Assembly: GCA_021790195.1 (NCBI GenBank)
Contig: JAJYIF010000001.1
Coordinates: 124,001-188,000, forward strand
Length of the DNA stretch: 64,000 nucleotides
Direction: 5' to 3'
Origin: Nitrospirota bacterium
Lineage (GTDB): Bacteria; Nitrospirota; Thermodesulfovibrionia; Thermodesulfovibrionales; UBA9159
The translations under genes and the position numbers were made by a program. The notes under the pieces were generated by a model that worked only from the letters and a program-made list of their open reading frames with translations, had not been told where the DNA came from and did no database searches. Below, in pieces: positions 42,427 through 58,617 of the stretch (position 1 is its first letter; each line of letters opens with the position of its first letter).

Positions 42427-43335
42427 TCAAGGGTTTTCTGTCGAATAGATCTGGACGCGGTTGTTGTTTCTGTCCGCCACAAACATATCTCCGTTTTCGT
42501 TGACGCATACATCGGTGGGATAATAAACCTCGTCTGTCCGCCATCCCAGCCTTAACTGACGGCCCTTGAAGGAGCCGTCGAGGCCGAGCATGACAATCCC
42601 CCCTCCGGTGCGGTCTACAACATAGATGTTCCCCTTCGTGTCCGTAGTCATGGCGACCGGGAAATTCATATATTCCTTCATGCTTTTTGTCAGGGGAGAA
42701 AAAGTATTGGAGTCTTTCGGCGCCGAGTAAATGACAGCCTTCACGCTGTCGAGAAGCAGTATATCGCCACGGGTGTTTACGGTAATGTCCGACATGAAGC
42801 CGTAATCCTTCGGGAACTCGATCTGCCTCCGGAACTTGCCGTCCGGATTTAGTATCACGACGCGGCCCGAATAGATATCAAGGATATATATATTGTCGCC
42901 GGCGTCCAGCGCGACGCCTTTGGGGTCCATAGTCTGCGCGTCCGGAAGGTCCGCAGGCGCGAGGAACTCCACAAAGGTCCCGTCCGGCTTCAGATGCAGT
43001 ATGCGGTGCTGTTTTTCATCAGGGACGAAAAGGTCTCCCTTCGAATTCCTCCTCACTTTGAAGGGGTATCCCATCTGGGAAACTTTGATCTCCTTGCCGC
43101 CGGTCAGGTTTTCGTTCTTATAGCCGTAAACAAGAAGCCTGTCATTCCCCGAATCACTCACGATCAGGGTGTCGCCGGTGCAGGCAAGCCCGCCGGGTTG
43201 ACTGATGCTGACCCCCTTATCGTCGGTATACACCGTAGTTATGTAACGCGCCTTGAACGCCTCGGCGCCGAAGGCGCTTGCGGGAAGAGCAAGCGCCGCC
43301 AACAGAAGGAGCAGTCCTGATAGCTTTCTTATCAT
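42427..43335 (-). CDS. Secreted NHL-repeat beta-propeller protein (3' end of the nanowire locus)
   Basis: 302 residues with a signal peptide (LLLLAALALPASAFG). The body is a run of NHL blades with repeated GVALDAGDNIYILDIYSGRV and DVCVNENGDMFVADRNNNRV patterns, forming a six-bladed propeller. NHL proteins act as scaffolds or binding platforms; in the OmcS region of Geobacter, as I recall, such genes also occur. It follows the 16-haem cytochrome by four bases and ends the eight-gene operon that begins with the YncE-like gene. Confidence 0.88.
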   Translation of the reverse strand: MIRKLSGLLLLLAALALPASAFGAEAFKARYITTVYTDDKGVSISQPGGLACTGDTLIVSDSGNDRLLVYGYKNENLTGGKEIKVSQMGYPFKVRRNSKGDLFVPDEKQHRILHLKPDGTFVEFLAPADLPDAQTMDPKGVALDAGDNIYILDIYSGRVVILNPDGKFRRQIEFPKDYGFMSDITVNTRGDILLLDSVKAVIYSAPKDSNTFSPLTKSMKEYMNFPVAMTTDTKGNIYVVDRTGGGIVMLGLDGSFKGRQLRLGWRTDEVYYPTDVCVNENGDMFVADRNNNRVQIYSTENP

Positions 43336-43339
43336 ATCA

Positions 43340-44614
43340 TCACCTCTTGTATTCCTTATGGCATTGGATGCACAGCTCCGTTATTGTGGGGAAAGGTATC
43401 ATCGTCTTGTACGGGGTGCCGTGCGCCCTGTGACAGCTAAGACACATCAAGGTATTGTTCTTGTTCCTCGGGTCGGTGTACTTCGGCCCTATGGGATGGG
43501 TCGAGTGTTTCTGCCACTCGTGGCAGGAACCGCACAGGTTTATGACGGAAGTCTGGTTAAACAGCATCAGGTTGTCCGAGGCATGAGGCGCATGACACGC
43601 CATGCATTTGCCGTCCTTTATCGGCTCGTGCTTGGTCACCGACTTCTCCTGTCTCTCGATAGTGTCCGAATGGCACTTCCCGCAAAGCTTCAGCATGGGG
43701 GCATTGAGGAGATTCGTCTCTTTCGAGGCATGGGGCGTGTGGCATATAAGGCATCCGCCCTTGGTGTAGAACGGCCAATGCAACTGGTTTTTCCCCAGGG
43801 CATCGTCCACCATGTTGCTGTGACAGCTTCTGCAGAGCTCGAAAACCGGCTTCTTAAGGGCCAACGGGTTCTGAGAAGTCGTGCTTTCATGGCACTGCCC
43901 GCACATCTTGCTCTCCACGGGAGGATGCACATTGTCAAAAAGCATACCGGCCCTGTTGGAGCCGTGCGGGTTGTGACAGAGTATGCATTTGGCGTTCCCG
44001 ACAGGATAGCCCATGTGCTTCGATGCGAAGATCGGCGCGTTTATATTGTGGCAGCCCTTGCAAAGATCGGGCACGTCGTTTTTCAATAAATGCTCCGCGC
44101 CCGGGGAGGCGTGGGGACTATGGCAGTTTATGCAGCCTTTTTCGACCGGGTCGTGTTTGAACCTGACCGAGGCGACTTTCTGCGCCATGTCCTTGTGGCA
44201 CCCGAAGCACAGGTCGTTACCGGATTTGAGCAGATTGAACTTGTTGTCGGAGGCGTGGGGATCGTGACAGTTCACGCACTTGCCTTCACGCGCCACCTTG
44301 TGTACGCTTCGGGCATTCGACGGTACAATGTCCTTGTGACATTTGAAGCATATCTTGCTGGTGTCCGCAGCCAATTGCTTGGGGTGGTTGGACGTATGAG
44401 GATCATGGCAGCCCGTGCATTGCCCGATCTTCACGGGAGTATGGACGAAGGGCTTGCTCAGCTTTTCCTGAATGTCCACATGACAGCCCAGGCATATCTT
44501 GCCGTGGGCGCCCGGCTTCAGATGGAATACGTTCTCCTGCGCATATGCCGGAACACTCAAAAAGAGCGCCGCAGAAGAAGCGGTCAAAAGAAGGATTCTA
44601 TATAACAGTTTCAT
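43340..44614 (-). CDS. Periplasmic or exported cytochrome c with 16 haems
   Basis: 424 residues. Signal peptide ends at VPAYAQEN. I count 16 CxxCH motifs, mostly as doubled CxxCH units with the CHDPHTS/CHSPHAS pattern and intervening KHDPVEKG-like segments, so the protein is a long haem wire. The last motif CIQCH lies at the C-terminus (HKEYKR). It follows the 26-haem cytochrome by 13 bases and is surely in the same operon. It may carry electrons from the inner membrane towards the outer-membrane parts. Confidence 0.93.
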   Translation of the reverse strand: MKLLYRILLLTASSAALFLSVPAYAQENVFHLKPGAHGKICLGCHVDIQEKLSKPFVHTPVKIGQCTGCHDPHTSNHPKQLAADTSKICFKCHKDIVPSNARSVHKVAREGKCVNCHDPHASDNKFNLLKSGNDLCFGCHKDMAQKVASVRFKHDPVEKGCINCHSPHASPGAEHLLKNDVPDLCKGCHNINAPIFASKHMGYPVGNAKCILCHNPHGSNRAGMLFDNVHPPVESKMCGQCHESTTSQNPLALKKPVFELCRSCHSNMVDDALGKNQLHWPFYTKGGCLICHTPHASKETNLLNAPMLKLCGKCHSDTIERQEKSVTKHEPIKDGKCMACHAPHASDNLMLFNQTSVINLCGSCHEWQKHSTHPIGPKYTDPRNKNNTLMCLSCHRAHGTPYKTMIPFPTITELCIQCHKEYKR

Positions 44615-44627
44615 ACCGTTCTCCTCT

Positions 44628-46601
44628 CTATTTCTTCTCGACTATATGGCAGTCGTCGCACGATCTTCCCCCGAATGGAGGATGGACATTCGTCTTGAAG
44701 AACTTGGGGTCCTTCGAGGCGTGCGGGTCGTGACAGCGCACACAGTTCATCACCGACGGATCGATATTGATATGGGCATTGCTGAAGGAAGCCGCCTTGA
44801 GGTCATGACACTGCCCGCAGACATCCGCCATCGGCTGCAGGAGCAGACGCGCCTGGGCCGAATAATGCGGACTGTGACAGGTGAGACAGTCGCTTGCGGC
44901 CGGCGGATGGTTCTTCTCTTTGCCCATCCTCTCTTTCAGGTCTTTGTGACAGGCCAGACACATGTCCGGGCCCTCCACCAGGAGGAGCTTGCTCAATTTA
45001 GACTTGTGCGGGTTATGGCACTTTGTGCACTCCCCGGACTCAAAGGGAGGATGCTTGCTCTTCGCCTGGGCCAGCCCTGTAGCGAGATCAGTGTGGCACT
45101 GCAGGCAGAGGACGTTCTGTTTATCCAGCAAGACGCCTTCCTGCGCGCTGCCGTGGGGATCATGGCAGTTCAGACACAACCCGTCCACAAAGGGCTCGTG
45201 GTTTGTGCCGCCCGGTATCTGTTTCATGAAATCGCTGTGGCACTGAACACAGAGCTTTGCGTCCTCGGCCTTGAGGAACTTCGAATTGTCCGCGCCGTGG
45301 CCGTCATGGCAGGCTGTGCAGAGGCCGCTCGAGACCGGTTTATGGACATAAGCCTTGAAGAATTTCGCCTCGGCGTTCGTGTGGCACGAGTAACAAACCT
45401 TGTCGATCCTGTCCTTGAAGATGTATTTGTATCCTGACCCATGAGGATTGTGACAGGCGACGCATGTCTCTTTGGCGAACGGAGGATGGGTATCTTTGAA
45501 TTTCTGCTCTTTTACTTTCGAATGGCATTGGAAGCACAGCTCTCCGACGCTCACATTAAGCATGTTCTTGTTCTTGGCGGCGTGCGGCCTGTGGCACGAG
45601 AGACAGCCCTTCTCGCTCTTTACCGGCGCATGGGCGAACGAAACCGCCGCTCCCTTATCCGAGTGGCAGCTCACGCAGAGATCGTCGATTCTCTGTAGGA
45701 GCAGCCTGTTGTTATCAGAATCATGAGGGTTATGACATGAAAGACACATCCCCTCTTTAAACGGGACATGCTCAATTGTGCCTCCCTGCTTAAGCGTCGC
45801 TTCATCGTGGCACTGGAAGCAGAGCGCGCTTCCGCTCTGGGTCAGTTCGAAAGGCTTGGGCGAAGAAGGAGGATTGTGGCACGCATCGCAGCTAGAGGTC
45901 GAAACGGGGTTATGTAGGCTCGTCTTGAGGAGTTTGGGCTGTTCGGACGAGTGAGGGTCATGGCAAACAAGACACGATTTGGTCTCTACCGGATAGTCTT
46001 CGTGGGCCTTCTTAAACGCCGCCTGCTTGCTGTCGTGGCAGCCGAGGCAGAGCTCTATGGAAGGTTTTGTAAGGAGGTCCTTTTCTTTGGAGCCGTGGGA
46101 GAGATGACAGGCCCTGCAGCCCTCGGTCAAAAGGACCTTATGGACGACCTTCTTTTCATAATTCTCCTTCTTGTGGCACTGATAGCATACTTCCCTTCCC
46201 TCGGCCTTCAAGAGATAGGCCGATTGAGACGCATGCGGATTGTGGCACTGGGTGCACTTTCCCTTCGTGACCGCAGTATGGACATTAGGCAGGTTCAGCC
46301 CGAGTTTATCCTTTGCATGGCACGAATAGCAGAGATCATTCCCCTCTTTCTTGAGGATAAGCTTGGGCACTATGCCGTGGCGGAGGTGGCAGTCCTCGCA
46401 CTTTTTGTCTTTCACCGGGGCGTGAATGTCCTTCATGGACATATAGGTCTCGGTAAATTTCTTATGGCAGTCGAGGCAGCCCTTGCTCACGAATTTCCTC
46501 TCGGCAGTCAGAGAGGAGTGGACCCCTAAGAAGAGGCCGGACAAAAGAACGGCCGTAAAGAGCACAATAATCTTGTTATTCCTTTTCACTGAGCTGAACA
46601 T
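44628..46601 (-). CDS. Periplasmic or exported cytochrome c with 26 haems
   Basis: 657 residues from ATG 46601, preferred because of the AAAGGG upstream; ATG 46619 would give an ATGA overlap with the prolyl isomerase stop and cannot be excluded. A hydrophobic N-terminal segment (IIVLFTAVLLSGLFLGVHSS) is the signal. I count 26 CxxCH motifs in regular doubled units (CHNPHAS, CHDPHSS, CHDGHGA). A 26-haem cytochrome, as I recall, also stands beside omcS in Geobacter sulfurreducens (GSU2495). It should form a long electron wire. Confidence 0.93.
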   Translation of the reverse strand: MFSSVKRNNKIIVLFTAVLLSGLFLGVHSSLTAERKFVSKGCLDCHKKFTETYMSMKDIHAPVKDKKCEDCHLRHGIVPKLILKKEGNDLCYSCHAKDKLGLNLPNVHTAVTKGKCTQCHNPHASQSAYLLKAEGREVCYQCHKKENYEKKVVHKVLLTEGCRACHLSHGSKEKDLLTKPSIELCLGCHDSKQAAFKKAHEDYPVETKSCLVCHDPHSSEQPKLLKTSLHNPVSTSSCDACHNPPSSPKPFELTQSGSALCFQCHDEATLKQGGTIEHVPFKEGMCLSCHNPHDSDNNRLLLQRIDDLCVSCHSDKGAAVSFAHAPVKSEKGCLSCHRPHAAKNKNMLNVSVGELCFQCHSKVKEQKFKDTHPPFAKETCVACHNPHGSGYKYIFKDRIDKVCYSCHTNAEAKFFKAYVHKPVSSGLCTACHDGHGADNSKFLKAEDAKLCVQCHSDFMKQIPGGTNHEPFVDGLCLNCHDPHGSAQEGVLLDKQNVLCLQCHTDLATGLAQAKSKHPPFESGECTKCHNPHKSKLSKLLLVEGPDMCLACHKDLKERMGKEKNHPPAASDCLTCHSPHYSAQARLLLQPMADVCGQCHDLKAASFSNAHINIDPSVMNCVRCHDPHASKDPKFFKTNVHPPFGGRSCDDCHIVEKK

Positions 46602-46615
46602 CCCTTTTCCCTTTC

Positions 46616-48361
46616 TCATAGCTGTTCGCAATTACTGAGATAGACCTCGACCTTGTAATGGGTCGTAAGCTTCCCGGCCCAATCGTCAAGGTCTTTCGTC
46701 ATCTTTTCGTTAAGAATTTTCTTATTGATCATCCCTTTGACACTATCCAGAGGCTGGGCAACGGGCGGGGCGATTTCCTGCACATAGATGACGTAATAGT
46801 ATCCGTCAGGGCTTTCATAGAGCTTAAAGTCGCCGGATTTTGCGTCTTCGATCGCCTTGCGGGCCCCTTGAGGCAGCTCAGCCGTGAACATAGAGGCGCC
46901 ATCAAAGACCATAAGTCCGTCAGTCTTCTTGACCTGACCTTCGGCGTTGTCGCGCACCCACTGGAAGTCCGCGCCCTTCTCTAATTTATCTATTGCATCA
47001 TCGGCGGCCTTTCTCTTCGTGAAAACGAGGCTGCTCAGCTTCACCTTCTTAAGACTCGTGTAGTCGCTCTTGTGCTTTTCATAATATGCCTTGACCTCGT
47101 CGTCCTTCACCTTTACTTCGGGGGAAATGACCTTCGTAATAAACAATCCGAAGAGCAGGGAATTCTCATAATCCCTAAGCCTGTCCTTGTACTCTTTGGT
47201 CTTGTCGATCCCCTGCCTGACCGCCTCTCCTTCGAGCACCCTCTTCTGAACGACCTCTTCCATGGTCGGAAACTTCTGCGCATTCACCTGCTTGTCCTTT
47301 ATCGACTCCTCGATGCCGTGGAAGAATTTACCTTTGAGGACCTCAGAAAACTCGGCCACCGTCACGGGCTTTTCGCCCTTGACCCTGATCAGGACCCTCT
47401 TGTCCTTCATAAACTTCCCGAAGCCCGGCTTCTTTGCCTCGTAATCGAGGCTGTTGAAGACCTTCTTGTCGACCATCACATATTTCTTGATCAGGCCCGT
47501 CAGATACTTTTTGAAAGCATTCGTCTTGTCTAATTCAAGCACTTCCTGCTCCGTCTGTTCCTTGACCTTCGGGTCGTCCGGATAGCTTATATCTTCGAGT
47601 TTCAGAATCGTGTAGCCGGACTCGACCTTTATAACGGGGCTGACCGAGCCGGTCTTCATGGAAGAAACGACCTTCTCGACCTCGGGCTGGAGGTCCTTGT
47701 TCTTGATGAACTTTCCTTCGAGCTCCCCGCTCGCTTCCTTTTTTTCTATGGCCTCCTTTGCCACCTTCGCGAAATCCTTGCCCGCCTTGATCTCCTTCTC
47801 CATCTTCTTTGCGGGCTCTTCCTTCCCGAAAAAAATGGACGCTATCTTGTATTGTTTTATCGCGTCCTTGTATTTCTTTTCCACTTCGGACTTGTTCACC
47901 TTTACGTCCTTGATGTGCTGTTCCCTGAGCATTTCCCTCAGGAGGGTCTTTGAATGGAGACTCACCGCCTTCTTGTACTCCGGCAGCTCGTCGAAACCCA
48001 TGTTGCGTGTCTCGGCCAGGATCAACCTTGTATTGATCATACGCTTCAATATATCGCAATAGTCCTTCTTGCCCGCCTTTTCCTTCTTTTCTGACATCTC
48101 CTCATGCGAGCGGGCGAGCATCTCGGTCAGCTCTTTCAGGGTGATCGGCTCACCGCTAACCGAAGCGACAGGCGTATCCGAAAAGAGAGGAGAGAAAACA
48201 GGGACGTTCAGAGTGACCCTTTCCTCGGAAAGTCTGGGGGCCGCAGCCGCAGCCGCCTTACCGTTCGGCTTGTCCGGTTTCTGATCGTCCGCGAAGCCGG
48301 TCGCGGCGCAGAGAAATATGCTAATCAAGACTGCCTTAAATACCATCGAAAAATATTTCAC
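46616..48361 (-). CDS. Periplasmic parvulin-type peptidyl-prolyl isomerase (SurA/PpiC-like)
   Basis: 581 residues from GTG 48361 behind GGAGGAAAC. Signal peptide SIFLCAATGFADD. An N-terminal SurA-like helical region (about 60-170) precedes a parvulin domain (GELEGKFIKNKDLQPEVEKV, SPVIKVESGYTILKLEDISY) and a second, more divergent one (KADDAIDKLEKGADFQWVRD, DGYYYVIYVQEIAPP). These isomerases help fold outer-membrane and secreted proteins. Its stop overlaps the following cytochrome start region, suggesting that it assists folding of haem proteins or the barrel of this locus. Confidence 0.87.
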   Translation of the reverse strand: MKYFSMVFKAVLISIFLCAATGFADDQKPDKPNGKAAAAAAPRLSEERVTLNVPVFSPLFSDTPVASVSGEPITLKELTEMLARSHEEMSEKKEKAGKKDYCDILKRMINTRLILAETRNMGFDELPEYKKAVSLHSKTLLREMLREQHIKDVKVNKSEVEKKYKDAIKQYKIASIFFGKEEPAKKMEKEIKAGKDFAKVAKEAIEKKEASGELEGKFIKNKDLQPEVEKVVSSMKTGSVSPVIKVESGYTILKLEDISYPDDPKVKEQTEQEVLELDKTNAFKKYLTGLIKKYVMVDKKVFNSLDYEAKKPGFGKFMKDKRVLIRVKGEKPVTVAEFSEVLKGKFFHGIEESIKDKQVNAQKFPTMEEVVQKRVLEGEAVRQGIDKTKEYKDRLRDYENSLLFGLFITKVISPEVKVKDDEVKAYYEKHKSDYTSLKKVKLSSLVFTKRKAADDAIDKLEKGADFQWVRDNAEGQVKKTDGLMVFDGASMFTAELPQGARKAIEDAKSGDFKLYESPDGYYYVIYVQEIAPPVAQPLDSVKGMINKKILNEKMTKDLDDWAGKLTTHYKVEVYLSNCEQL

Positions 48362-48401: not shown

Positions 48402-49517
48402 CTATTTGATCGCCATTTCCGTAACCGCCCGCGTCATCTCGGACGAGAGAGAAAAGGCGGTGTTGATCTTGCCGCTGTCAAAAAAGAACACCCCGTCGCT
48501 TCCTTCGTTATAGCTGTTTGAGGACCAGACGATTTCCTTGCTTTTCCTGTCGAAGATCAGGGCGGAAAAGTCGACCCTTGGAACGCCGAGGGGGCCCTGA
48601 TAATCCTCGTAATCAAAAACGTATCCCGCAACGATCAGGTCCACGTTGAGAGTGTTGAAAATGACGTCCGCATTGGTCAGGGAAAGACCCTGCTCCAGGA
48701 TGACCCTGTACTGAAGCAGCTTCTGTCTTATAAGACCTATGTCTTTCACGTCGAGGTTCTTGAATTTCGTAAGATAGTCCATAAACATCAGCTGCATCAT
48801 ATCTCCGGCATATCTCCTCTGGCTCCTGTTATAAAACGGCAGGACGGCCACAGAGTATTTCTCGGATGCGCTCAGCTCGGGCGAGCGGTATGACACCTTC
48901 GGCCTGAACCTCTTCGAAAACGATCCAGGTGACTTCCCCGTATGCGAGAGGGTCGCGGCGAGGGAATTAATAAGGGTCTGGAGCGCATTCTCGCGAAGGA
49001 CCGCAGGGCTCTCGATAAGCCCGAGCTCTAGGAACCCGGGAGAATCATCCCCTGACAGCCCGGTCCCGTCCATCCATAGGACCCTTGGGGACGGCCCTGT
49101 CGAGACCAGACGCGAGACCATGGAGATCCTGGGCGGCGTTGTCACGTTATAAAGTTCCAGTTCTGTTATAAGCACAGCATCGACGCCAATCTCTTTCTTG
49201 AAGGCCTTCGCGGTCTCCTCGTCTATGCCCCCGACGTAACGTACCCTGCGCTCCGCCATAAAATCCTCAAGACTCTTTTCGTCGATAACGGACAGGCCCG
49301 CCTCCTCCAGTTTCTTGATAATAGATTCCCTCATCTCCTTCAACGGAGCCGGGCTCATGCTCATGTTCTCTATCGGAAAAACAGCCACCCTTAAATCCTT
49401 TCCCTTCAAAATACCCTCGCTCGTGCCGGCGACCCTCAGATCAGCGCACCCGGCAAGGACGGCGAGAGCAACGACCAAAGCCAAGACCTTACATAAAGAG
49501 TTTATCGATGAGGTCAT
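48402..49517 (-). CDS. CsgG/FlgO-like lipoprotein with two tandem domains
   Basis: 371 residues. Signal peptide ends in LAVLAGC (lipobox). Two similar alpha/beta units follow: about 40-150 (LRVAVFPIENMSMSPAPLKE, GIDEETAKAFKKEIGVDAVL) and about 235-360 (YSVAVLPFYNRSQRRYAGDM, LNVDLIVAGYVFDYEDYQ), like the TolB/CsgG N-terminal fold. CsgG itself forms an outer-membrane secretion pore; this protein lacks an obvious barrel hairpin, so pore formation is not shown. The start overlaps the end of the upstream lipoprotein gene by 29 bases. Confidence 0.78.
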   Translation of the reverse strand: MTSSINSLCKVLALVVALAVLAGCADLRVAGTSEGILKGKDLRVAVFPIENMSMSPAPLKEMRESIIKKLEEAGLSVIDEKSLEDFMAERRVRYVGGIDEETAKAFKKEIGVDAVLITELELYNVTTPPRISMVSRLVSTGPSPRVLWMDGTGLSGDDSPGFLELGLIESPAVLRENALQTLINSLAATLSHTGKSPGSFSKRFRPKVSYRSPELSASEKYSVAVLPFYNRSQRRYAGDMMQLMFMDYLTKFKNLDVKDIGLIRQKLLQYRVILEQGLSLTNADVIFNTLNVDLIVAGYVFDYEDYQGPLGVPRVDFSALIFDRKSKEIVWSSNSYNEGSDGVFFFDSGKINTAFSLSSEMTRAVTEMAIK

Positions 49518-50115
49518 TGGCGGCCTTCACTGTAATATCGTTCATCGGCTTGCCTCCGCCTCCAAAAAGGCGGTCCCAGAAGCTGATACCGCCTTCCGTG
49601 GCAGATGCCGACCACACAACCCTGCCTGTTTCCGTTTCAATCATTTGCAGGCTAAGCGATATCACGTTTGAAGAGGAGTTCCCTGACCTCACCTCTCCGT
49701 ATTCCTTGAGGACCCCCAGGATCACCGCATTGGCTGAAATCGCACCCGCGATCTTCTTGATCTCCTCCGTTGTAGGCGTCGCGGGAGTCGTCGTACCCGA
49801 CCTCAGGATCCCGCGGGTCACCTCTCCTGTAGGGATGACATAGACGGCACCCGTGGCCTGAAGCAAATTCATGAACACGTCCCTCACCCTTTCAGCGGCC
49901 GACTGGTCCCTCGTAAGGTTTGTGAAGGGAAGCACGGCAACGGTCTTGATGGCTCCAAAATCCATATTAGGGTCTTTGTAGACATCCGTGGCCCCCTTGA
50001 CTGAGGCGCATGAAGCGAGGCAAGCGACTACGATGATTGATAAGATCCTGGTCAACGATGTTTTCACGACTACCCTTTGAATAGTTTTTACTTTAGCAAT
50101 TATATAATTTATCAT
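49489..50115 (-). CDS. CsgG/GNA1162-like lipoprotein
   Basis: 208 residues from ATG 50115, which has GGAGGG eight bases upstream; ATG 50136 is less well supported. The signal peptide ends in VACLASC. The sequence KTVAVLPFTNLTRDQSAAER and the later VSLSLQMIETETGRVVWSAS pattern fit the DUF799/GNA1162 and CsgG-like lipoproteins. Together with its neighbour it may form a lipoprotein complex in the outer membrane. It follows the barrel gene by 51 bases. Confidence 0.78.
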   Translation of the reverse strand: MINYIIAKVKTIQRVVVKTSLTRILSIIVVACLASCASVKGATDVYKDPNMDFGAIKTVAVLPFTNLTRDQSAAERVRDVFMNLLQATGAVYVIPTGEVTRGILRSGTTTPATPTTEEIKKIAGAISANAVILGVLKEYGEVRSGNSSSNVISLSLQMIETETGRVVWSASATEGGISFWDRLFGGGGKPMNDITVKAANDLIDKLFM

Positions 50116-50166
50116 ATTTGCGTCCCTCCGTTCCATATGTCGTATGTGGCCTCCCTAGAATGATCC

Positions 50167-52353
50167 TCACAGCAGCACCCTCAGCGTTCCCGTAAGGATA
50201 TTAGAATTAGACGACTGCACTATTGAGCTCGAAGTAAGACGCAGATACGTGATCTGCAAGGTAGTTTTTTCGCTTATTTTCCAGGTCAGGCTAGGACTCA
50301 GCGTTCTATCCTTCGAGTTGGTATCGGACCTGAAATTGTCGTTATACAGGAAATTCAACTGAAGGGACCCGTCCGGAAAAGGCGACCAGTTTATGCCGTA
50401 ATTGCTGAGATAGTAGGATTTCGCGCCGGTCTGGTGAACGACCCCGAATTCCGCGACGATGTAAACGGTCTCAAACGGCCTGTAGGTTGCGCCCGCGTCG
50501 AACCTGTCGAAGAGTGTATGGTCGGTCCCCTCTATGCCCGGCCCAGTCCTCGATGTATTATTCAGGGAATAATTAAGGTTCAGGGTCACGGTCCTGTGAG
50601 GAACGGCTGTCGCGCCAAGGACAGCGGTGGTGCTTGTATTTTTTACCCCTTTGTCATCGGTGTTGGAGCTCCAGCCCACGGAGGCGTTGGCGTTTATCCC
50701 CCTGTACAACTCCGCAGAATTATTGAGTACGACGGCGTTGCTGTCATTTGTCCTTCCCGGCAACTGCGATATCTGCCCGCTGTAAACAAGGGTATGGCGC
50801 AATGTCCTGAAGGGAACAGCGGTAACGGACGCAGAATAGATATAGTCAACTCTCGAACCGTTTATGTCGTACCCGTCGTTGCGCGAAAAACGGGCCATGC
50901 CTGAGAAGACGCGGCTGAAGGTATGGGCGGCGGTAAGTCCGTTGGAAATGGTATACCTCGTAAAAGAGGAGGCGCCGGTCCCGCTGGAGTTCGTCAAGTA
51001 GAGAGAGAAGTCATAATAGAGGGAGGGCACATCCAGAATCTTCGTCCTGACGTTCATATTGTAAAGGTGGTTGATCTGCGTGTTCGTCCCGCTCACCTGG
51101 GAGGCGGGCTTCTTGATAAAGGTCTGGAACTCGGTGACAAAGATGTCCGGGAAATTCGTTGCGCCTTCGATCCCTGTCGAAAGCGGCTTTACGACGACCT
51201 TCATGTACCGTGTCGTCACGTTCGGAAAGTTAAGATCGAAGCGGTTCTGGAAAGGGCCGAAGGGGGCCGAGGACAGGCTCTGGAAGAAAGTCCAGTTCTG
51301 GTTGTCCGAGCTTATATAGATGTCCCAGGAGAAGGAGCTCGCTATCTGGGCAGGGAGCGCCCTGTCGACCCAGACGTAGAGCTCGTTGACCTCGGTGGCA
51401 TTGAAGAAATCGACCCCTATGTTCCTCGGCCTTGTATCTCCACCCACTATCGGGGGCAGTCCTATGTTTATGCCGCTGCTCGCCGTCAGATTGCCGTCTA
51501 TCAGCGCCGGGTTTGCGGAAAGGGCGCCCTGAATCGGCAGGTCCGTAATGAGCGACAGGCCGGCGAAGGGAAAGAGCTGCACGCCCACGAAGCCTTTGCC
51601 GCTCTGGGAAGTGTCCGTCGTGCGCAGGGCGAACGAATAGTTTGCGTTGACGAAGACCCTGTTGAAGAAGACGTTAGAATATGTAGCGATGGCGTTGTGC
51701 AGATAGGACGTGACATCGAGGTCGTTTAGCTTGTCTCTGAGGTCGTTGTAAGTGAGCTGGTAGTTCAGATCGAGCCCCCTCATCGCTGTATACTTCGAGC
51801 TCAGGAGAAGGTTGTCGTTCGTGATGTCCTGGAGTTCATGGGCCTTGTCGAAGGTGTTTGTGTTCGTATATTGGACATTGAGGGTCGGGAGTCCCTCCGG
51901 TCTCCATCCCAGCCTTGCGTGATAGTCCTCATTTACAAGGGTGGAGCTAGGAGAGCCGGAGGCTGTGGTCTTCTCTTCCCTCCTGTTATAGCCCGCCATG
52001 ACATTATAGAGCCTTGTGTTCAACTGCAGGTCGGCGTACGGGTTTATGGTGGTGTCAGTAGACTTTATCCTTGAATTCGTCGTGTTCAGCGTTGCCTGGT
52101 CCCACTCAAAAATCCCTCCGGCCAGAAGCCGCAGGTTTGGGAATATGGATTTATCAAGGGTCAGGTTATACTTCTGGTCGAAATCATGCGAGTTGAGCTT
52201 GGTCGTATTCCCCGATGAGTCTGTGGTCTTGCTGTCAAAAATAGAGTAGTCCAATTCTATAAGCCCGCCGATCGAATCGGCGAGAGCCCCGCCTGCCGAC
52301 ACATGTAAAAAAAAAAGTGAAAAAATGATTAAAAAGGCGAGGCGCTTCTTCAT
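50167..52353 (-). CDS. Large outer-membrane beta-barrel protein with discoidin-like insert
   Basis: 728 residues with a signal peptide (FLIIFSLFFLHVSAGGALAD). The rest is alternating amphipathic beta-strands with aromatic ends, such as LNVQYTNTNTFDK, LTLNLNYSLNN and FLYNDNF, ending in a beta-signal-like TLRVLL. Residues about 310-415 differ and resemble an F5/8-type C (discoidin-like) domain (FFNATEVNELYVWVDRALPA, SWDIYISSDNQNWTFFQSL, RYMKVVVKPL). Being between the YncE gene and the lipoproteins in a cytochrome operon, it could be a porin of a porin-cytochrome conduit or the exit channel for the filament. The barrel is clear; the function is inferred. Confidence 0.8.
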   Translation of the reverse strand: MKKRLAFLIIFSLFFLHVSAGGALADSIGGLIELDYSIFDSKTTDSSGNTTKLNSHDFDQKYNLTLDKSIFPNLRLLAGGIFEWDQATLNTTNSRIKSTDTTINPYADLQLNTRLYNVMAGYNRREEKTTASGSPSSTLVNEDYHARLGWRPEGLPTLNVQYTNTNTFDKAHELQDITNDNLLLSSKYTAMRGLDLNYQLTYNDLRDKLNDLDVTSYLHNAIATYSNVFFNRVFVNANYSFALRTTDTSQSGKGFVGVQLFPFAGLSLITDLPIQGALSANPALIDGNLTASSGINIGLPPIVGGDTRPRNIGVDFFNATEVNELYVWVDRALPAQIASSFSWDIYISSDNQNWTFFQSLSSAPFGPFQNRFDLNFPNVTTRYMKVVVKPLSTGIEGATNFPDIFVTEFQTFIKKPASQVSGTNTQINHLYNMNVRTKILDVPSLYYDFSLYLTNSSGTGASSFTRYTISNGLTAAHTFSRVFSGMARFSRNDGYDINGSRVDYIYSASVTAVPFRTLRHTLVYSGQISQLPGRTNDSNAVVLNNSAELYRGINANASVGWSSNTDDKGVKNTSTTAVLGATAVPHRTVTLNLNYSLNNTSRTGPGIEGTDHTLFDRFDAGATYRPFETVYIVAEFGVVHQTGAKSYYLSNYGINWSPFPDGSLQLNFLYNDNFRSDTNSKDRTLSPSLTWKISEKTTLQITYLRLTSSSIVQSSNSNILTGTLRVLL

Positions 52354-52363
52354 ATCGGCGCCC

Positions 52364-53833
52364 TTATCTCTCTCCCATAAGGGTCACCCAATAAGGGTCT
52401 TCCCCCACATCGAACCTGCCGAGGACCTTCTTGCTCGTAAGGTTCAGGACACTGATGGTGTCCCGGCCCACAACATACAGATTGTTCTCGTCGCCGTCTA
52501 TAGTCATATAAGTAGTACCTTGTCCGGACTTCATGAAATCCATGGGCAGAAGAGAAAATGGGTCATAAATATCTATAGTATCGGAATCCTTTCTTCCGAT
52601 ATAGATAAAATCCGACTGCGTATCGACCTTGATCGCCGTCACCCCAAAGCCAAGATATACCTTGTTCAGGACCGACAGGGAGGCTGGGTCGATCACGGAC
52701 ATATAGGGAGAAAACTGGTGTATCACGTACAGCCTGTCCCCTTTCCTGTTAAACTGACCTCTGAGCGGCATCGATTCCGTCCCGATCGTTGTGACGACCG
52801 CCTTGTTCCCGATATCTATTACCGTGATCGAATTGGAAAGCATATTGAAAACATAAGCCCTCTTGCCGTCGGGCGATATCAGGATAGAGTTGGGTCCGTT
52901 GCCCACACTTATCCTGTTCGTCTCCATGTAGGAGGCGGTGTCTATCACGCTGACGGTATTCGATCCCGAGTCTACGCAGAGGAGAGTGCGTCCGTCAGGG
53001 GTAAGCGCCAGCTCCTGCGGACTGTCGCCGACGGTAAGTCTCACCCGCTGGATAACGTCCTGGGTTATGACGTCGCTGACCTGGATCGTGTCGTCGCCCG
53101 AAAGAGCGGTATAGAGCCTCCTCGCCCTCTGGTCCAGGGCCATTCCCTTTGGGCTGCTCCTTGTCGCCATGACCCCGACCGCCTGGATCCCTTTTTTATC
53201 GAACACCGTGACATTGTTCTGTCCCGGATTGCTTACAAACCCGAGGACTCCCGTGACGGGTTTCCCCGGTATAAAGACACTGAAGACCGGACTGAAACTG
53301 AACTCGTCCTTTACCGACTGCGCGTACTTGAAATTCATATTCAGGAGAAGGGCCTTTTGTTTAGAGATCTGAAACGGCGACTCGATCTTTACCGGCGCCT
53401 CGGGTGTCGCCATCGCCGACTCGCCCTCTTCGCCCTGAAGGAATGCCTTGCCCGTCTTGAAAAACAGTCCCGAGTAGCTGCCGGGCGGCAGGACGCCGCT
53501 CGCGACAAGCCTCTGTCTCGGTTCCTGCTCCCACTTAAACTCCTTAACATAAAGGTTCAGAGGATATTCGCTCCCGTCCGTCTTGACTGCAGAGACACTT
53601 TCGATAAAAAACCTGAGTCTCTGGGCCTCCTGGGGTATCGGCTGGAGATAGACATAGACCTCGCCGTCCTCCTCAAGCGGGGGCTTCACAGACAAGGGCT
53701 TTGCCTCGCAGGCCGAAAGAAACAAAAGCGCAAGCGGAACAAGAACTGCGGCCTTCGACAATAATTTTTTATAATTTAATGCGCCTCGTATTGCCAATCT
53801 TTTCTGTGCCGGACAACCGGATCTTCTTTTCAT
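52364..53833 (-). CDS. YncE-like beta-propeller lipoprotein with DUF4382-like N-terminus
   Basis: 489 residues from ATG 53833; ATG 53869 is alternative. A hydrophobic segment ends in LLFLSAC (lipobox). The N-terminal domain (about 45-180, GEVYVYLQPIPQEAQRLRFF, LPPGSYSGLFFKTGKAFL) resembles DUF4382-like beta-sandwiches. The C-terminal part is a seven-bladed YncE-type propeller with repeats VIDTASYMETNRISVGNGPN and ILISPDGKRAYVFNMLSNSI. A sigma-70-like promoter lies between it and the omcS terminator. First gene of the eight-gene operon; barrel gene follows at ten bases. Confidence 0.82.
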   Translation of the reverse strand: MKRRSGCPAQKRLAIRGALNYKKLLSKAAVLVPLALLFLSACEAKPLSVKPPLEEDGEVYVYLQPIPQEAQRLRFFIESVSAVKTDGSEYPLNLYVKEFKWEQEPRQRLVASGVLPPGSYSGLFFKTGKAFLQGEEGESAMATPEAPVKIESPFQISKQKALLLNMNFKYAQSVKDEFSFSPVFSVFIPGKPVTGVLGFVSNPGQNNVTVFDKKGIQAVGVMATRSSPKGMALDQRARRLYTALSGDDTIQVSDVITQDVIQRVRLTVGDSPQELALTPDGRTLLCVDSGSNTVSVIDTASYMETNRISVGNGPNSILISPDGKRAYVFNMLSNSITVIDIGNKAVVTTIGTESMPLRGQFNRKGDRLYVIHQFSPYMSVIDPASLSVLNKVYLGFGVTAIKVDTQSDFIYIGRKDSDTIDIYDPFSLLPMDFMKSGQGTTYMTIDGDENNLYVVGRDTISVLNLTSKKVLGRFDVGEDPYWVTLMGER

Positions 53834-53840
53834 TAAACCA

Positions 53841-53869
53841 ATCTTATCCGATATTCTCCCCTGTTTCAA
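53841..53869 (-). promoter_or_regulatory. Probable sigma-70 promoter of the eight-gene operon
   Basis: TTGAAA (plus-strand 53864-53869) and TAAGAT (53841-53846) are 17 bases apart on the minus strand. Transcription would start about one base before the ATG at 53833, suggesting a leaderless mRNA. Confidence 0.5.
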
Positions 53870-53957: not shown

Positions 53958-55346
53958 TTAGTCTTTTGCGTGGCACTTGTTGCAGAGCTGTCTCTGATAG
54001 GTCGCGTATATTGTCGCGGGCCTCTCATAGAAAGATCTCTGCACCTGGGCCTGGGTATAACCCATGTTGTACTGTCCGCCCTGCGCCTCTGTGGTGGCGG
54101 CGTCGATGCCCGGATATATGCCGCCGAGGGTGAGGAATTCAGCGCCGGTGTTCCACCTTGTGGACTGCGGCCATGCAGATGCATGCGCCCTGTGGCAGGA
54201 GAGGCACATCACGTTTGTGTTGTTGCCCGGAGTCGGTCCCTGTGTCTTGGACCCGTCATTCACTGCATCAGCGGCAAGAGCTGCATAGTTTGTCTGATTA
54301 AGCGTGAGGTTCTCCTCATACGGAACCATGGAGGTGTATGAAGTCGCCTGGGTGCCTGTCAGATTGCCGGAATATACATAGGCGTTGTACTTCTGTGCTA
54401 TGCTTACGCCGTTTGCATCCGTATTGTCGAGAGAAGCAGCCGCGTCGTTTCCGGTCGGGTGCTCAAGCGTTGTCGGGTAGTTCGGGTTGTGGATCTGGGT
54501 GTGGCAGTTTGCGCACCACTCGGACATACCGCTTCCATATGCGACCCTGGTGTCTGTAGTGGCCTCAGACCTGTTGTAGGTCGAAGGCGCAAAGGCAAAA
54601 GGAGAAGGGTTCGTAAACGCCAAGCCCATTCCCGCAACTGAATCAGGCTCATAACCGACGCCTGCGAGGAGTCTGTAAACGCCGACCGCCTCACCGGCTC
54701 CGCCGTTTCCGTTGGTTGTCGGCAGTTCGGTCCCATAAGAACCGGAGCCGATGATCGGGCCGACGTTCGTGCCGATAGCGGACACAACAGACTGGTAGCT
54801 GCTGTTGATCCTGTATTTGCCGTGGGGATCATGGCAGCTAGAGCAATAAAGGTTCGCTACCGGGTATGTCCCGCCCGGGGCCGTGGTGTAGGCTGACTGG
54901 GCAGTCAGACCGAAGTCTGCAGCAACGATGTTATGGCCGTGGAAGTTGCCCGGGTTGGAAACAGGCGAACCATAGGAGGTCGTCGCGCTCGTCGTGAGCT
55001 TCAGCCATGAGAAGTCTCCGCCCGGGGTCATGTCGCCGGGTACGAAGCCCGCAGCCGGCGTGCCTGTCGAGGACAGGATGTGATAGCCGCTGAAGGAGGT
55101 GTTGCTTGCGTGGCAGTTAAGACAGGTCGAGCTCTGGTCGCTGCCTTTCAAAAGATAAGTATGACCGTTGAACTGGACCGCGCCGCCGGTAGTTGATACG
55201 GCGGTGTTGTGCAATGAGTTGTGCATGGTGTGGCATCCTTCGCAATACGCGACGCCGCCGTCATGGTATGCATAGGCAGAGCCCGCAAACCCGAGGGCCA
55301 GAACCGCAACTGCGATGATGACCAAACTTGCTTTTAATCCTTTCAT
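53958..55346 (-). CDS. omcS: OmcS-type hexahaem cytochrome, extracellular nanowire subunit
   Basis: 462 residues with GGAGGAAAGAA before the ATG. Signal peptide ends AGSAYA; mature protein begins YHDGGVAYCEGCHTMHNS. Six CxxCH motifs lie at Cys35, 75, 168, 278, 381 and 455. The sequence matches G. sulfurreducens OmcS, recalled from memory, along its whole length: GDFSWLK, TTAPGGTYP, CSSCHDPHGKYR, STYNRSEATTDTRVAYG, MSEWCANCHTQIHN, CLSCHRAHAS and the end RQLCNKCHAKD. OmcS subunits polymerise into filaments in which stacked haems conduct electrons over micrometres; the C-terminal haem contacts the next subunit. The conserved spacing supports the same filament here. It follows an NHL gene and is closed by a strong terminator, so high expression is expected. 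Confidence 0.95.
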   Translation of the reverse strand: MKGLKASLVIIAVAVLALGFAGSAYAYHDGGVAYCEGCHTMHNSLHNTAVSTTGGAVQFNGHTYLLKGSDQSSTCLNCHASNTSFSGYHILSSTGTPAAGFVPGDMTPGGDFSWLKLTTSATTSYGSPVSNPGNFHGHNIVAADFGLTAQSAYTTAPGGTYPVANLYCSSCHDPHGKYRINSSYQSVVSAIGTNVGPIIGSGSYGTELPTTNGNGGAGEAVGVYRLLAGVGYEPDSVAGMGLAFTNPSPFAFAPSTYNRSEATTDTRVAYGSGMSEWCANCHTQIHNPNYPTTLEHPTGNDAAASLDNTDANGVSIAQKYNAYVYSGNLTGTQATSYTSMVPYEENLTLNQTNYAALAADAVNDGSKTQGPTPGNNTNVMCLSCHRAHASAWPQSTRWNTGAEFLTLGGIYPGIDAATTEAQGGQYNMGYTQAQVQRSFYERPATIYATYQRQLCNKCHAKD

Positions 55347-55481: not shown

Positions 55482-56438
55482 CTATTCATAATTGATCCCG
55501 AAAACGCTGACTCCCCTGTTCATGCTCTGGGTCACATAAAGTTTTCCGTCCTGATACGCGATCTCCTTAGGAGCGATTAGCTCGCCGGGACCGAGACCCC
55601 TCTGGCTGAATTGTGTGATGAATCTATAGTCCTTATCGAAGACAAGCACTGCGGACTTGAGCACATCCGCCACGTAAAGGTTCCCCTTGTCGTCCTCCGT
55701 GATCCCTGAAATGACGTTAAATTTCCCAGGCGCGCCGCCCTTCTGACCGAAGGCGGCCAGCTTCCCGTCGGGAGAATACTTGAATGCTTTGAAAACCACC
55801 GGGACCGTAAACAGCATGTTCCCGTCCTTGTCAAGACTGAAACCTGAGATCTCGATGTCGTATCTCTTCTTACCTTCGAGGTTAAGGACGGAGAATAGGT
55901 CATAACTCTTCTCAAAGAGTCCTTTGGAGTCGGCCAGGACCACCCTCATGGAGCCTTTGTCCACCAAGTAGATATGCCCGCCGCGGTAAAGTATCTCGGT
56001 CGGCCTGAACTCCTTTTCAAGTCCCGCCGGGAGGTTCCTGATATTTATCCTGGAAACCAGCTCACCCCTGAAGTTGGCCAGCAGCACGGAGTATTTCGAA
56101 TGATAGTCATAAGAGAGGACAAGGATGTTGCCTTTGTCGTCGAGCGTCACATCATAAATAATGCCGAGACTGTTGTCATCGCCGAAGGTATAGACTTCCA
56201 TGCCTTCCTGGTTGAAGATCCTCACCGAATTGTCCGCTACATCGGTTACGTAGATCTCCCCCATCTTGTTGTCCGTAAAGACGTTGACCCAGCCATAGGG
56301 CACAACGCCGCTGAAGTTGGAAAGGCTATAGAGATAAGATGTGCGGACGTTTTCCGCCTCGGCACTAGCGCAAAAGGCTGTCAGGACAAGAGCGAGAGCT
56401 GCGGAAACTGCAGGATGCTTTTTTAGTGTGCTTCTCAT
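55482..56438 (-). CDS. Secreted NHL-repeat beta-propeller protein upstream of omcS
   Basis: 318 residues; AAGGAAG precedes the ATG. Signal peptide LALVLTAFCASAEAE. Six NHL blades with patterns such as GWVNVFTDNKMGEIYVTDVA and GITEDDKGNLYVADVLKSAV. It is followed by omcS after 135 bases and is probably in the same transcript. NHL genes beside omcS, as I recall, also occur in Geobacter, so a role in filament assembly or anchoring is plausible but unproven. A sigma-54-like site overlaps its upstream region. Confidence 0.87.
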   Translation of the reverse strand: MRSTLKKHPAVSAALALVLTAFCASAEAENVRTSYLYSLSNFSGVVPYGWVNVFTDNKMGEIYVTDVADNSVRIFNQEGMEVYTFGDDNSLGIIYDVTLDDKGNILVLSYDYHSKYSVLLANFRGELVSRINIRNLPAGLEKEFRPTEILYRGGHIYLVDKGSMRVVLADSKGLFEKSYDLFSVLNLEGKKRYDIEISGFSLDKDGNMLFTVPVVFKAFKYSPDGKLAAFGQKGGAPGKFNVISGITEDDKGNLYVADVLKSAVLVFDKDYRFITQFSQRGLGPGELIAPKEIAYQDGKLYVTQSMNRGVSVFGINYE

Positions 56439-56837
56439 GGCGCTTCCTTAAGAGCAAGCCATATGCCAGGAAGGGCCGATACAAAAAGTTTAATAAGAAC
56501 GGGATGTTACAGAACGATGGAGCTTTTCAAGACATGCATAAACGGTTAAATTACCAGGTAGGGTTGGTGAGTTTACCAGGCGGAAAAGTAATCTCCGGCT
56601 ACAATAAAAATGATCCCGGGAACTACGCGGCGGGAAGAATAACGGCTCCGCGTGATAAACCTTTTTTTCGTGCTCGCAAATCTTCACCCCGTAAACCTGC
56701 CGACTGAAAAGGTGAAAATCCTTTTCTTAGTGGGTAATTTCGCTGACTCTCGTCATATGGCCCATGCGTCGGCATCCTTAACTCCTTGAAAATATGTCTT
56801 TTCCCCGTGGTATGCTATTTGCTTGGTGATGTCCCGG
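56439..56837. other. Divergent intergenic region with sigma-54-like site
   Basis: About 400 bases between the NHL gene (minus) and the CheY-like gene (plus). It holds the sigma-54-like site at 56453-56469, a six-pair stem ACGCGG/CCGCGT (56625-56630 with 56648-56653) followed eight bases later by seven T, and a weak plus-strand promoter (TTGAAA near 56786, TATGCT 56811-56816). No convincing gene. Confidence 0.55.
56453..56469 (-). promoter_or_regulatory. Sigma-54-like -24/-12 element before NHL-omcS
   Basis: On the minus strand CTGGCATATGGCTTGCT matches the consensus YTGGCACGRNNNTTGCW at GG and GC with the exact spacing; three variable positions differ. The predicted start is near 56442, four bases before the NHL ATG, which would cut off the AAGGAAG ribosome binding site, so a chance match is possible. 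An NtrC-family activator is encoded nearby. Confidence 0.5.
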
Positions 56838-57228: not shown

Positions 57229-58617
57229 TTATTCAAGCCCGAACTTCTTGATCTGGTACCTGAAAGAGTCATAACTGATATTCAATAACTTGGCCGCGAG
57301 TGTTTTATTGTTCTTTGCCCTTTCGAGGGCCTGCATTATGAGGTCTTTTTCGAGATCGTCCAGGGAAATGCCGTTCTCCGGAAGAATGAATCTCCCTTCG
57401 AATTTCCCACCCGGAATGAGTCCCGGCGTGACTACCTCCCTCGGCAGGTGCTCAGCCATCACGGTTGTTGCGCTTTCGAGCACAACGATCCTTTCCACCA
57501 CATTCCTGAGTTCTCTCACATTTCCGGGCCACTTGTAGGAGATCATAAGCTTTTCAGCTTCAGGGGAAAGGTCTCTTATCGTTCTGTTCCCATACTTTTC
57601 GGCAAACCTGTTGAGATAATATTTCGAGATTGCCGGAATGTCGTCTCTCCGTTCCCGCAGGGGAGGGATGAATAGCGAGAAGACATTCAGACGGTAGAAG
57701 AGGTCCGTCCTGAACTCGCCCTTTTCCACAGCCTCGGAGATGTCCTTGTTCGTAGTGGCGATTACCGTAACGTCCACAGGGATCTCCTTCTGACCGCCGA
57801 TCCGTCGTATCGTCCTCTCCTCAAGGACGCGCAGCAGCTTGCTTTGAAGGCTGAGCTTCATGTCGCCTATTTCGTCGAGGAGTATTGTCCCTCCGTTTGC
57901 GAGCTCGAACATGCCTTTCTTTTCGGTCCTCGCATCGGTGAAGGCGCCTTTTTCAAAGCCGAAGAGCTCGCTCTCGAGAAGGTTTTCAGGAAGGGCCGTG
58001 CAGTTGATCGCGATGAAAGGCGTGCAGCCCTTGCCGGGATCGCAGTTGATAATGCCGTGTATATAACGCGCGACCAGCTCCTTGCCTGTGCCGCTTTCAC
58101 CCGTGATGAGGATCATGGAGACACCTGAACGGGCCATCTTCTCAGCCTTCTTCTTGAGCTCATTTATGGCTTCCGATTCCCCGACTATCTCTTTTTCGAA
58201 GGCGTCCGAGTAGAACTTTCTGAGGTAGTTGACCTCCTGCTTCAGGCTCCCTTTCTCAATGATATTCTTTACGACAATCTTCACCTCATCTATATTGAAG
58301 GGCTTGGTCAGATAATCGGCGGCCCCGAGCTTCATGCATTTGATGGCGGTCTCAACGTGGTCGTTCGCCGTCAGCATGACAACCTCCGTATCGATCCTGC
58401 TCCTCTTTATCTCTTCGAGTATCTCGATGCCGCTCGTGCCGGGAAGGTTCATATCGAGCAATACAACGTCCGGAGGCCACGATCCGACCTTGTCCGCAAC
58501 AGCGATGAAAGACTGAGATTCCGAGCCGACCTCATAGCCTTCGCCCTTCAGTGCCCTCGAGAGCATCGCCACAATAAGTTCGTCATCATCGATGAGAAAG
58601 ACCTTCCCCTTCTTCAT
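57229..58617 (-). CDS. NtrC-family sigma-54-dependent response regulator
   Basis: 462 residues. Receiver domain 1-120 with phospho-acceptor Asp55 and Lys105; AAA+ domain about 145-380 with Walker A GESGTGKE (173-180) and Walker B GGTILLDEIGD; C-terminal helix-turn-helix (about 425-462, KNNKTLAAKLLNISYDSFRY). The sigma-54 contact loop reads GAFTDA (225-230) rather than GAFTGA; a D at that position is seen in other members. Its start overlaps the kinase stop by four bases, giving a clear two-component pair. It is the obvious candidate activator for the sigma-54-like site upstream of NHL-omcS. Confidence 0.95.
   Translation of the reverse strand: MKKGKVFLIDDDELIVAMLSRALKGEGYEVGSESQSFIAVADKVGSWPPDVVLLDMNLPGTSGIEILEEIKRSRIDTEVVMLTANDHVETAIKCMKLGAADYLTKPFNIDEVKIVVKNIIEKGSLKQEVNYLRKFYSDAFEKEIVGESEAINELKKKAEKMARSGVSMILITGESGTGKELVARYIHGIINCDPGKGCTPFIAINCTALPENLLESELFGFEKGAFTDARTEKKGMFELANGGTILLDEIGDMKLSLQSKLLRVLEERTIRRIGGQKEIPVDVTVIATTNKDISEAVEKGEFRTDLFYRLNVFSLFIPPLRERRDDIPAISKYYLNRFAEKYGNRTIRDLSPEAEKLMISYKWPGNVRELRNVVERIVVLESATTVMAEHLPREVVTPGLIPGGKFEGRFILPENGISLDDLEKDLIMQALERAKNNKTLAAKLLNISYDSFRYQIKKFGLE

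Follow-up and report, generated by a model that had tools for sequence, protein, structure and literature searches.

An osc Cluster in a Nitrospirota Genome

By which route do filaments of OmcS-type cytochromes cross the outer membrane? This question is raised by a cluster of ten genes in a 64,000-nucleotide stretch of DNA (hereafter, the window) from a Nitrospirota bacterium, an uncultured relative of Nitrospira (assembly GCA_021790195.1, contig JAJYIF010000001.1, positions 124,001 to 188,000). An initial annotation, made from the letters alone, had singled out three of these genes as encoding two CsgG-fold lipoproteins and a 728-residue barrel with a discoidin-like insert, and had suggested that they may serve as the exit apparatus of nanowires. 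The three open reading frames (ORFs) were confirmed on the minus strand (50167-52353, 49489-50136 and 48402-49517), and by sequence and gene order they correspond to OscE, OscF and OscG of an osc ("omcS companion") cluster. The ten genes run head to tail on that strand from 56438 to 42427, with gaps of 4-135 bp or overlapping (Table 1); the OscF and OscG genes overlap by 29 bp, and those of OscH and OscI by 16 bp. Given this close spacing, co-transcription of the barrel and both lipoproteins with the cytochromes is likely.

The six-heme protein of the window matches the solved OmcS (6ef8) over its full length in a PDB sequence search (E=1.6e-105), and the genes that accompany it follow the arrangement of Geobacter sulfurreducens, in which the osc cluster corresponds to the GSU2494-GSU2505 region (Shen et al. 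2025, Cell Chem Biol, cited in the accessible part of PMC13194489). The same part of PMC13194489, again citing Shen et al. 2025, assigns OmcS secretion to OscE, OscF and OscG, folding to OscH and morphology to OscD, and names omcS, omcT, oscC (GSU2501), oscI (GSU2495) and oscJ (GSU2494) in that organism, while an excerpt of PMC3495685 describes GSU2497 as a lipoprotein and places a YVTN propeller (by its KN400 gene number) between GSU2497 and omcS. The osc letters used here for the window genes follow gene order and the published locus tags, the one G. sulfurreducens protein compared in sequence being OmcS. In sum, the window holds a Nitrospirota version of a machinery that was described in 2025, and the idea of a dedicated outer-membrane exit was right in outline, but not new.

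Table 1. Coordinates of the osc cluster, its upstream site and the adjoining regulatory genes in the window.
Feature	Position	Strand	Basis and remarks
NHL1, secreted NHL/6-bladed propeller, first cluster gene	55482..56438	-	Pfam NHL, DUF5128; same strand in 28/41 named loci
OmcS-like six-heme filament cytochrome	53958..55346	-	PDB 6ef8 OmcS E=1.6e-105, residues 27-462; 6 CxxCH
OscD-like beta-propeller lipoprotein	52364..53869	-	YNCE/YVTN propeller; lipobox LSAC
OscE-like outer-membrane beta-barrel, 728 aa, F5/8C (discoidin)-like insert at residues ~251-421	50167..52353	-	AlphaFold model; MtrB best PDB match
DNA of the OscE discoidin-like insert (codons 251-421)	51091..51603	-	Between model strands 11 and 12
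OscF-like lipoprotein, 215 aa, single PelC/GNA1162-type domain	49489..50136	-	Pfam GNA1162-like, LpoB; profile matches
OscG-like lipoprotein, 371 aa, tandem of two CsgG-superfamily domains	48402..49517	-	AlphaFold model; PelC/GNA1162 structure matches
OscH-like periplasmic PpiC/SurA-type prolyl isomerase	46616..48361	-	Pfam Rotamase_2 E=1.3e-27
OscI-like 26-heme cytochrome, DmsE/MtrA family	44628..46631	-	TIGR03508 390 bits vs cut-off 192; 26 CxxCH
OscJ-like 16-heme cytochrome	43340..44614	-	16 CxxCH; TIGR03508 176 bits, under cut-off
NHL2, secreted NHL propeller, last cluster gene	42427..43335	-	Pfam NHL E=1.5e-22; in 31/41 named loci
Sigma-54 promoter-like site TGGCATATGGCTTGCT before NHL1	56453..56468	-	Exact consensus match
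NtrC-type sigma-54 regulator	57229-58617	-	Adjoins cluster
Sensor histidine kinase with CxxCH heme-binding motif (CFDCHH)	58614-60449	-	Adjoins cluster

The cluster is well conserved and functionally coherent, and its recurrence goes far beyond chance. A single scan of GTDB species genomes, baited with the OscF-like protein, yielded 41 named loci, which belong to Geobacter, Geotalea, Geomobilimonas, Anaeromyxobacter, Desulfobulbaceae, Desulfocapsa, Schekmanbacteria, Acidobacteriota, Nitrospirota and others, and the same gene set was found around all 41, contig ends allowing. Counted on the bait strand, and uncorrected for contig ends, F was present in 41 loci, E in 40, D in 39, G in 36, H and an OmcS-like gene in 35 each, I and J in 33 each, NHL2 in 31 and NHL1 in 28. 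The order D-E-F-G-H-I-J, with 26 hemes in I and 16 in J, is common to Geobacteraceae, Anaeromyxobacter, Nitrospirota and Acidobacteriota; by script, it was exact in 17 of the 20 loci with full flanks, the failures being two loci in which overlong ORF starts upset the sort (L050, L058) and one with G upstream on the other strand (L049). In 19 of these 20 loci, D has OmcS-like genes upstream, and an OmcS homologue accompanies the osc genes in all of them; nearly all complete copies of I and J among the 41 loci hold 26 and 16 CxxCH motifs, respectively. Within the taxonomic order of the window, the same gene set and order was observed in nine of nine genomes with the barrel, as far as contigs reach (the contig of L015 stops after E, without F or G, and L013 has no I or J). 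Loci L012 and L029, whose contigs are equal in length, were taken as the same genome, as were L014 and L028 for the same reason, and tallies over L012-L061 hold these two duplicates.

When 48 family genomes were searched for OmcS, the best match, 72% identical to the solved protein, came from a Geobacteraceae locus (L096) that reads NHL1, OmcS, a second OmcS-like gene, D, E, F, G, H, I, J and NHL2, and whose D to H proteins show 32-60% identity, in the same order. In the window and Geobacter clusters, the latter as seen at this locus, the OmcS-type cytochrome precedes, in one and the same order, a propeller, the barrel, both lipoproteins, the prolyl isomerase, the cytochromes of 26 and 16 hemes and an NHL protein; the clusters differ in that the window has one OmcS-like gene, whereas G. 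sulfurreducens has omcS, omcT and oscC, and in the NtrC-type regulator and heme-binding sensor kinase upstream of the window cluster. A second osc cluster was not found in the window genome (G000; 3.3 Mb, 96% complete), in which the OscF profile matched only F and G of this cluster.

PelC-like Lipoproteins OscF and OscG

We then focused on the two lipoproteins, whose membership of the CsgG superfamily was upheld. OscF matched the Pfam families GNA1162-like and LpoB above their cut-offs, and its family profile, compared with solved structures, matched GNA1162 (4hrv, E=8.5e-7) and PelC (PelBC entry 9h80, E=4.7e-6). The OscG protein of the window had no Pfam match by itself; among 32 members of its family, however, 12 matched CsgG, 11 LpoB and 6 GNA1162-like at E<=0.1, and the family profile matched PelC in its second half (3.8e-5) and, weakly, GNA1162 in its first (0.018). 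In the AlphaFold model of OscG (pLDDT 86.7, pTM 0.84) one fold occurs twice, as a tandem of short domains of ~155 residues each. Structure comparison aligned domain 2 with PelC (5t10_C) at Z 16.6 and rmsd 2.2 Å over 137 of 138 residues, and domain 1 with GNA1162 at Z 12.4 (the structure-based OscG set comprised 31 of 37 ORFs, those of odd length being left out). A soluble TolB-like role for OscG was also considered, as TolB N-domains align to domain 1 (Z 11-12), but it was discarded, since it leaves the linkage to the barrel and the PelC match unexplained.

The initial annotation had pointed to the curli export pore, in which case OscF and/or OscG would oligomerize and insert their own beta-hairpins as an exit channel. 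CsgG subunits each have two long membrane-spanning beta-hairpins. In favor of such a pore are the common superfamily, the Pfam CsgG matches of 12 of the 32 OscG homologues and the alignment of CsgG chains with OscG at Z 11.5, but the latter has an rmsd of 5.4 Å, and PelC aligns much better. Moreover, strands in the OscG domains do not go beyond 11 residues, nor loops inside a domain beyond ~15, and neither would be long enough for the two membrane hairpins of CsgG; long CsgG-type hairpin insertions, when looked for in the model, were found in neither domain. A separate barrel is also encoded next door, some relatives are without lipid anchors, and the curli partners CsgA, CsgB, CsgE and CsgF were absent from the Pfam matches of the ten cluster proteins. 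Because the OscG model leaves no room for membrane hairpins and PelC fits better, a curli-like pore was rejected as the principal explanation, and we regard it as very improbable. OscF, judged by sequence, and OscG, by sequence and model, share a superfamily with CsgG but appear to be built like PelC.

The comparison with the PelBC exopolysaccharide exporter (PDB 5t0z, 5t10, 5t11, 9h80) extends to the gene neighborhood, as in both systems lipoproteins of the PelC fold stand beside one outer-membrane barrel. The differences are that OscE has 28 predicted strands against 16 in PelB and no TPR domain, that OscG is a tandem, and that the substrate would be a protein. In pel operons, PelB with its TPR domain occurs together with Pel synthesis genes; none of these was found among the osc-cluster neighbors, which are cytochromes, propellers and the prolyl isomerase.

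As for lipid anchoring, both window proteins carry a lipobox cysteine (LAGC in OscG, Cys43 in OscF), which agrees with their description as lipoproteins. Among relatives, a lipobox-like cysteine was present in 32 of 38 classified OscF sequences (3 more unclassified) and a lipobox in 20 of 29 classified OscG sequences (7 more unclassified), counts in which the F protein of L057 was scored without a lipobox though its letters show one, and the G protein of L041 on a later motif. Five OscF proteins clearly lack it, four of them at loci with Acidobacteria or Acidobacteriota in the title and the fifth from Vicinamibacterales. Anchoring of OscF and OscG, as read from these motifs, is common but not universal. 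Elsewhere in the window genome, a separate CsgG-family protein was observed (G000:C21:69925-70482, locus L064; E=1.8e-25), whose matched frame contains a TAA.

OscE, a Predicted MtrB-sized Barrel with a Conserved Insert

The predicted structure of OscE confirmed the annotated barrel: the AlphaFold model (pLDDT 89.2, pTM 0.66) has 28 antiparallel strands, 11 before and 17 after the insert, as read by eye from the DSSP line. Among 991 chains aligned, the best solved match was MtrB (6r2q_B; Z 19.8, 451 residues, rmsd 9.4), and TonB-dependent receptors, LptD and ushers were the next closest folds; OscE had no Pfam MtrB_PioB match at E<=0.1. A round 28-strand barrel would be 49-56 Å across by the standard barrel formula, and the OmcS filament measures ca. 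4 nm (PMC6584659). OscE is, in principle, predicted to be wide enough for an OmcS-sized cytochrome.

The insert had been called discoidin-like, and here the window protein and its family differ, since the former scores 23.4 bits against the F5/8C Pfam family, below the 27.8 cut-off, whereas matches at E<=0.01 (best, 1.7e-6) were obtained for 11 of the 35 members of its family; the F5/8C assignment is of moderate strength. The insert measures 170-195 residues in all 35 aligned OscE sequences, and it is the most conserved part of the protein, with a mean column identity of 0.51 versus 0.43 and 0.44 for the barrel halves (the OscE family set comprised 34 of 42 barrel ORFs, those of odd length being left out). 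As a usual rule, outer-membrane barrels have both ends in the periplasm; with an even number of 28 strands, and with the insert following strand 11, the insert is predicted by the model to lie on the outer, extracellular face. The outer loops of such proteins are usually their most variable part, and the conservation of this insert therefore makes a conserved partner likely, most simply the filament itself.

OscI, OscJ and the Electron-conduit Alternative

MtrB being the closest fold, we then considered the porin-cytochrome conduit that the initial annotation had mentioned as an alternative, and which has since gained weight. OscE would here be an MtrB-type sheath for the MtrA-like end of OscI (or OscJ), and the complex, instead of exporting protein, would carry periplasmic electrons to the OmcS filament base. 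In addition to the MtrB match, OscI lies above the cut-off of TIGR03508, the DmsE/MtrA family (390 vs 192 bits), with OscJ below it (176 bits), and a PDB search with OscI returned 6r2q_A (E=4.3e-23), a chain of the Mtr complex taken as MtrA from the entry title, as the search table gives it another molecule name. By sequence, OscI is a 26-heme member of the MtrA/DmsE family, and for this reason an MtrAB-like conduit stays a serious rival or a second function. Moreover, OscI and OscJ (~26 and 16 hemes) accompany the barrel from locus to locus, and a search across the window genome returned no MtrB_PioB-family barrel. On the other hand, the rmsd between OscE and MtrB is large, LptD and TonB-dependent receptors score close behind, and OscE is without an MtrB_PioB match. 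To our knowledge, conduits do not need the PelC-like proteins and the prolyl isomerase that are part of the set. Geobacter genetics also points to secretion, as cited in the consulted part of PMC13194489. Altogether, we consider a conduit acting in place of export rather unlikely.

Compared directly with MtrAB(C) (PDB 6r2q), the window cluster has the same barrel size, the best fold match and an adjoining multiheme cytochrome of the MtrA/DmsE family, but OscI holds 26 hemes against 10, OscE falls outside Pfam MtrB_PioB, and the lipoproteins, the insert and the chaperone are additional. With the CsgG curli pore, the superfamily of the lipoproteins is shared, whereas the OscG model has no membrane hairpins and the barrel is separate. 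Overall, the parts look more like a sugar-polymer exporter and an electron-conduit barrel than like a curli pore.

A Possible Exit Route for OmcS-type Filaments

Gene content and order, protein families and predicted folds are the observations from which we infer a route, and the model that we find reasonably probable is a dedicated exit for the OmcS-type filament, made of a PelC-type ring under an MtrB-sized barrel of 28 strands. OscH, the prolyl isomerase, would keep the OmcS-like subunits competent, while OscF and the double-domain OscG would form a PelC-like lipoprotein ring or collar at the periplasmic mouth of OscE. The subunits would pass through this collar and then through the OscE barrel, and the filament would grow outside the cell, where the discoidin-like insert, if on the outer face, may act as a lid, a filament dock or an anchor. 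The model is in agreement with the OmcS homology, the conserved D-J order, the functions assigned to the osc proteins in Geobacter, the PelC kinship of OscF and OscG, the width of the barrel model relative to the filament and the conservation of the insert; PelC itself is described in the accessible text of PMC12141448 as a 12-subunit periplasmic ring with a 3.2 nm bore, docked under the PelB barrel.

Several points weigh against a dedicated exit. Ring formation and subunit passage are inferred; the pTM of the barrel model is only 0.66, and its nearest fold, MtrB, houses in its lumen a cytochrome and not a secreted substrate. PelB, according to the same text of PMC12141448, has 16 strands and a TPR domain, neither of which is seen in OscE, and the lipid anchors of OscF and OscG are absent in several relatives. 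The initial annotation took the exit route to be unsettled, a view made out of date in 2025, when secretion was assigned to OscE, OscF and OscG, yet a review of that year (PMC12307469) still calls the secretion mechanism speculative. The review also states that deletion of pilA-N abolishes extracellular OmcS. Separately, OmcS is dispensable for growth in anode biofilms according to the part of PMC13194489 consulted, which counts against the physiological weight of OmcS filaments.

The effect of the pilA-N deletion would be expected if filaments left the cell by the type II or type IV pilus machinery (a PilA-N pseudopilus and a secretin), with OscE, OscF and OscG merely anchoring or trimming them, and three secretins over cut-off were found in the window genome. 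Secretins are general, however, whereas the osc genes accompany OmcS homologues in all 20 full-length loci, and this fits a dedicated route; exit through the pilus machinery is, in our view, distinctly unlikely.

It should also be considered that exit and conduit can both hold. In such a hybrid, the PelC-type ring and the MtrB-sized barrel would export OmcS, after which the MtrA-like end of OscI would stay in the barrel as an electrical feed, and the discoidin-like domain would hold the base of the filament. We judge this combination unlikely; if true, nanowire exit and nanowire charging would be one complex.

Possible Control of the Cluster

Upstream of NHL1, 14 nt before its start codon, lies TGGCATATGGCTTGCT, the only exact sigma-54 consensus match on either strand of the window, where ~0.06 would be expected from base composition. 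Its use as a promoter is uncertain, because the leader would be only ~4 nt by manual count and would exclude the ribosome-binding site. A count over 50 loci, which include two duplicates, gave 13 exact sites; nine of them sit 4-253 bp upstream of an OmcS-like or NHL1 gene. With one mismatch allowed, the rate of sites before OmcS-like and NHL1 genes was 27 times that elsewhere (16 in 33,543 versus 30 in 1,684,289 positions), and 16 of 44 loci had such a site (L012 and L029 belong to one genome). These sequence matches, in the window and at loci L016, L018, L019, L022, L024, L039, L049, L052 and L056, suggest sigma-54 control of nanowire clusters outside Geobacter, in several phyla. Against it stand a looser search of the whole window, which gave no excess (22 sites versus 26.9 expected), the absence of such a site at the Geobacteraceae locus L096, and the G. 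sulfurreducens RpoN regulon paper, whose text names neither omcS nor its locus tag.

The sensor kinase and the NtrC-type regulator that adjoin the cluster (Table 1) may provide redox-sensing control of the nanowire operon. Beside this pair, a PhnD-like substrate-binding lipoprotein was read by eye at 60449-61357.

Variant Clusters in Other Genomes

Some loci depart from the common arrangement. Five from genomes of the same taxonomic order (L016-L020) carry a distant version of the cluster, in which the proteins are ~21-40% identical to those of the window. Each of the five has two OscF-type genes, and there are several cytochromes of 5-6 hemes, whose five-row profile matches OmcS at 4.5e-21; the one OmcS-like cytochrome from such clusters that was tried as a single sequence had no PDB match. 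This version is a candidate for a new nanowire type. In Schekmanbacteria (L022), the barrel gene and oscF are separated by an OmcS-like gene. Anaeromyxobacter oryzae (G064, the genome of L047) has two strong OscF matches, at C1:4872888 and 4901347, ~28 kb apart, and probably holds two osc clusters. Finally, in three acidobacterial-type loci a membrane protein of ~1000 aa is encoded between oscF and oscG (L031:1578-4571, L043:4111-7218 and L044:7236-10229) and, by eye, looks like a spermidine-synthase-type enzyme.

Implications

This work adds the PelC-type identity of OscF and OscG, the MtrB-sized 28-strand barrel with a conserved outer domain, as predicted, and the MtrA kinship of OscI. None of these was met in the papers searched, though Shen et al. 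2025 may already describe them. No paper listed by the literature searches links PelC or a discoidin domain to OmcS; the single text in which "PelC" turned up together with OmcS refers to a brand of silver paint. The exit of cytochrome filaments and the entry of electrons into them are central questions of extracellular electron transfer. The present cluster documents the osc set in Nitrospirota, and its parts can now be named as putative PelC-type ring proteins, an MtrB-sized barrel and a 26-heme relative of MtrA, so that the curli analogy is replaced by two sharper, testable models.

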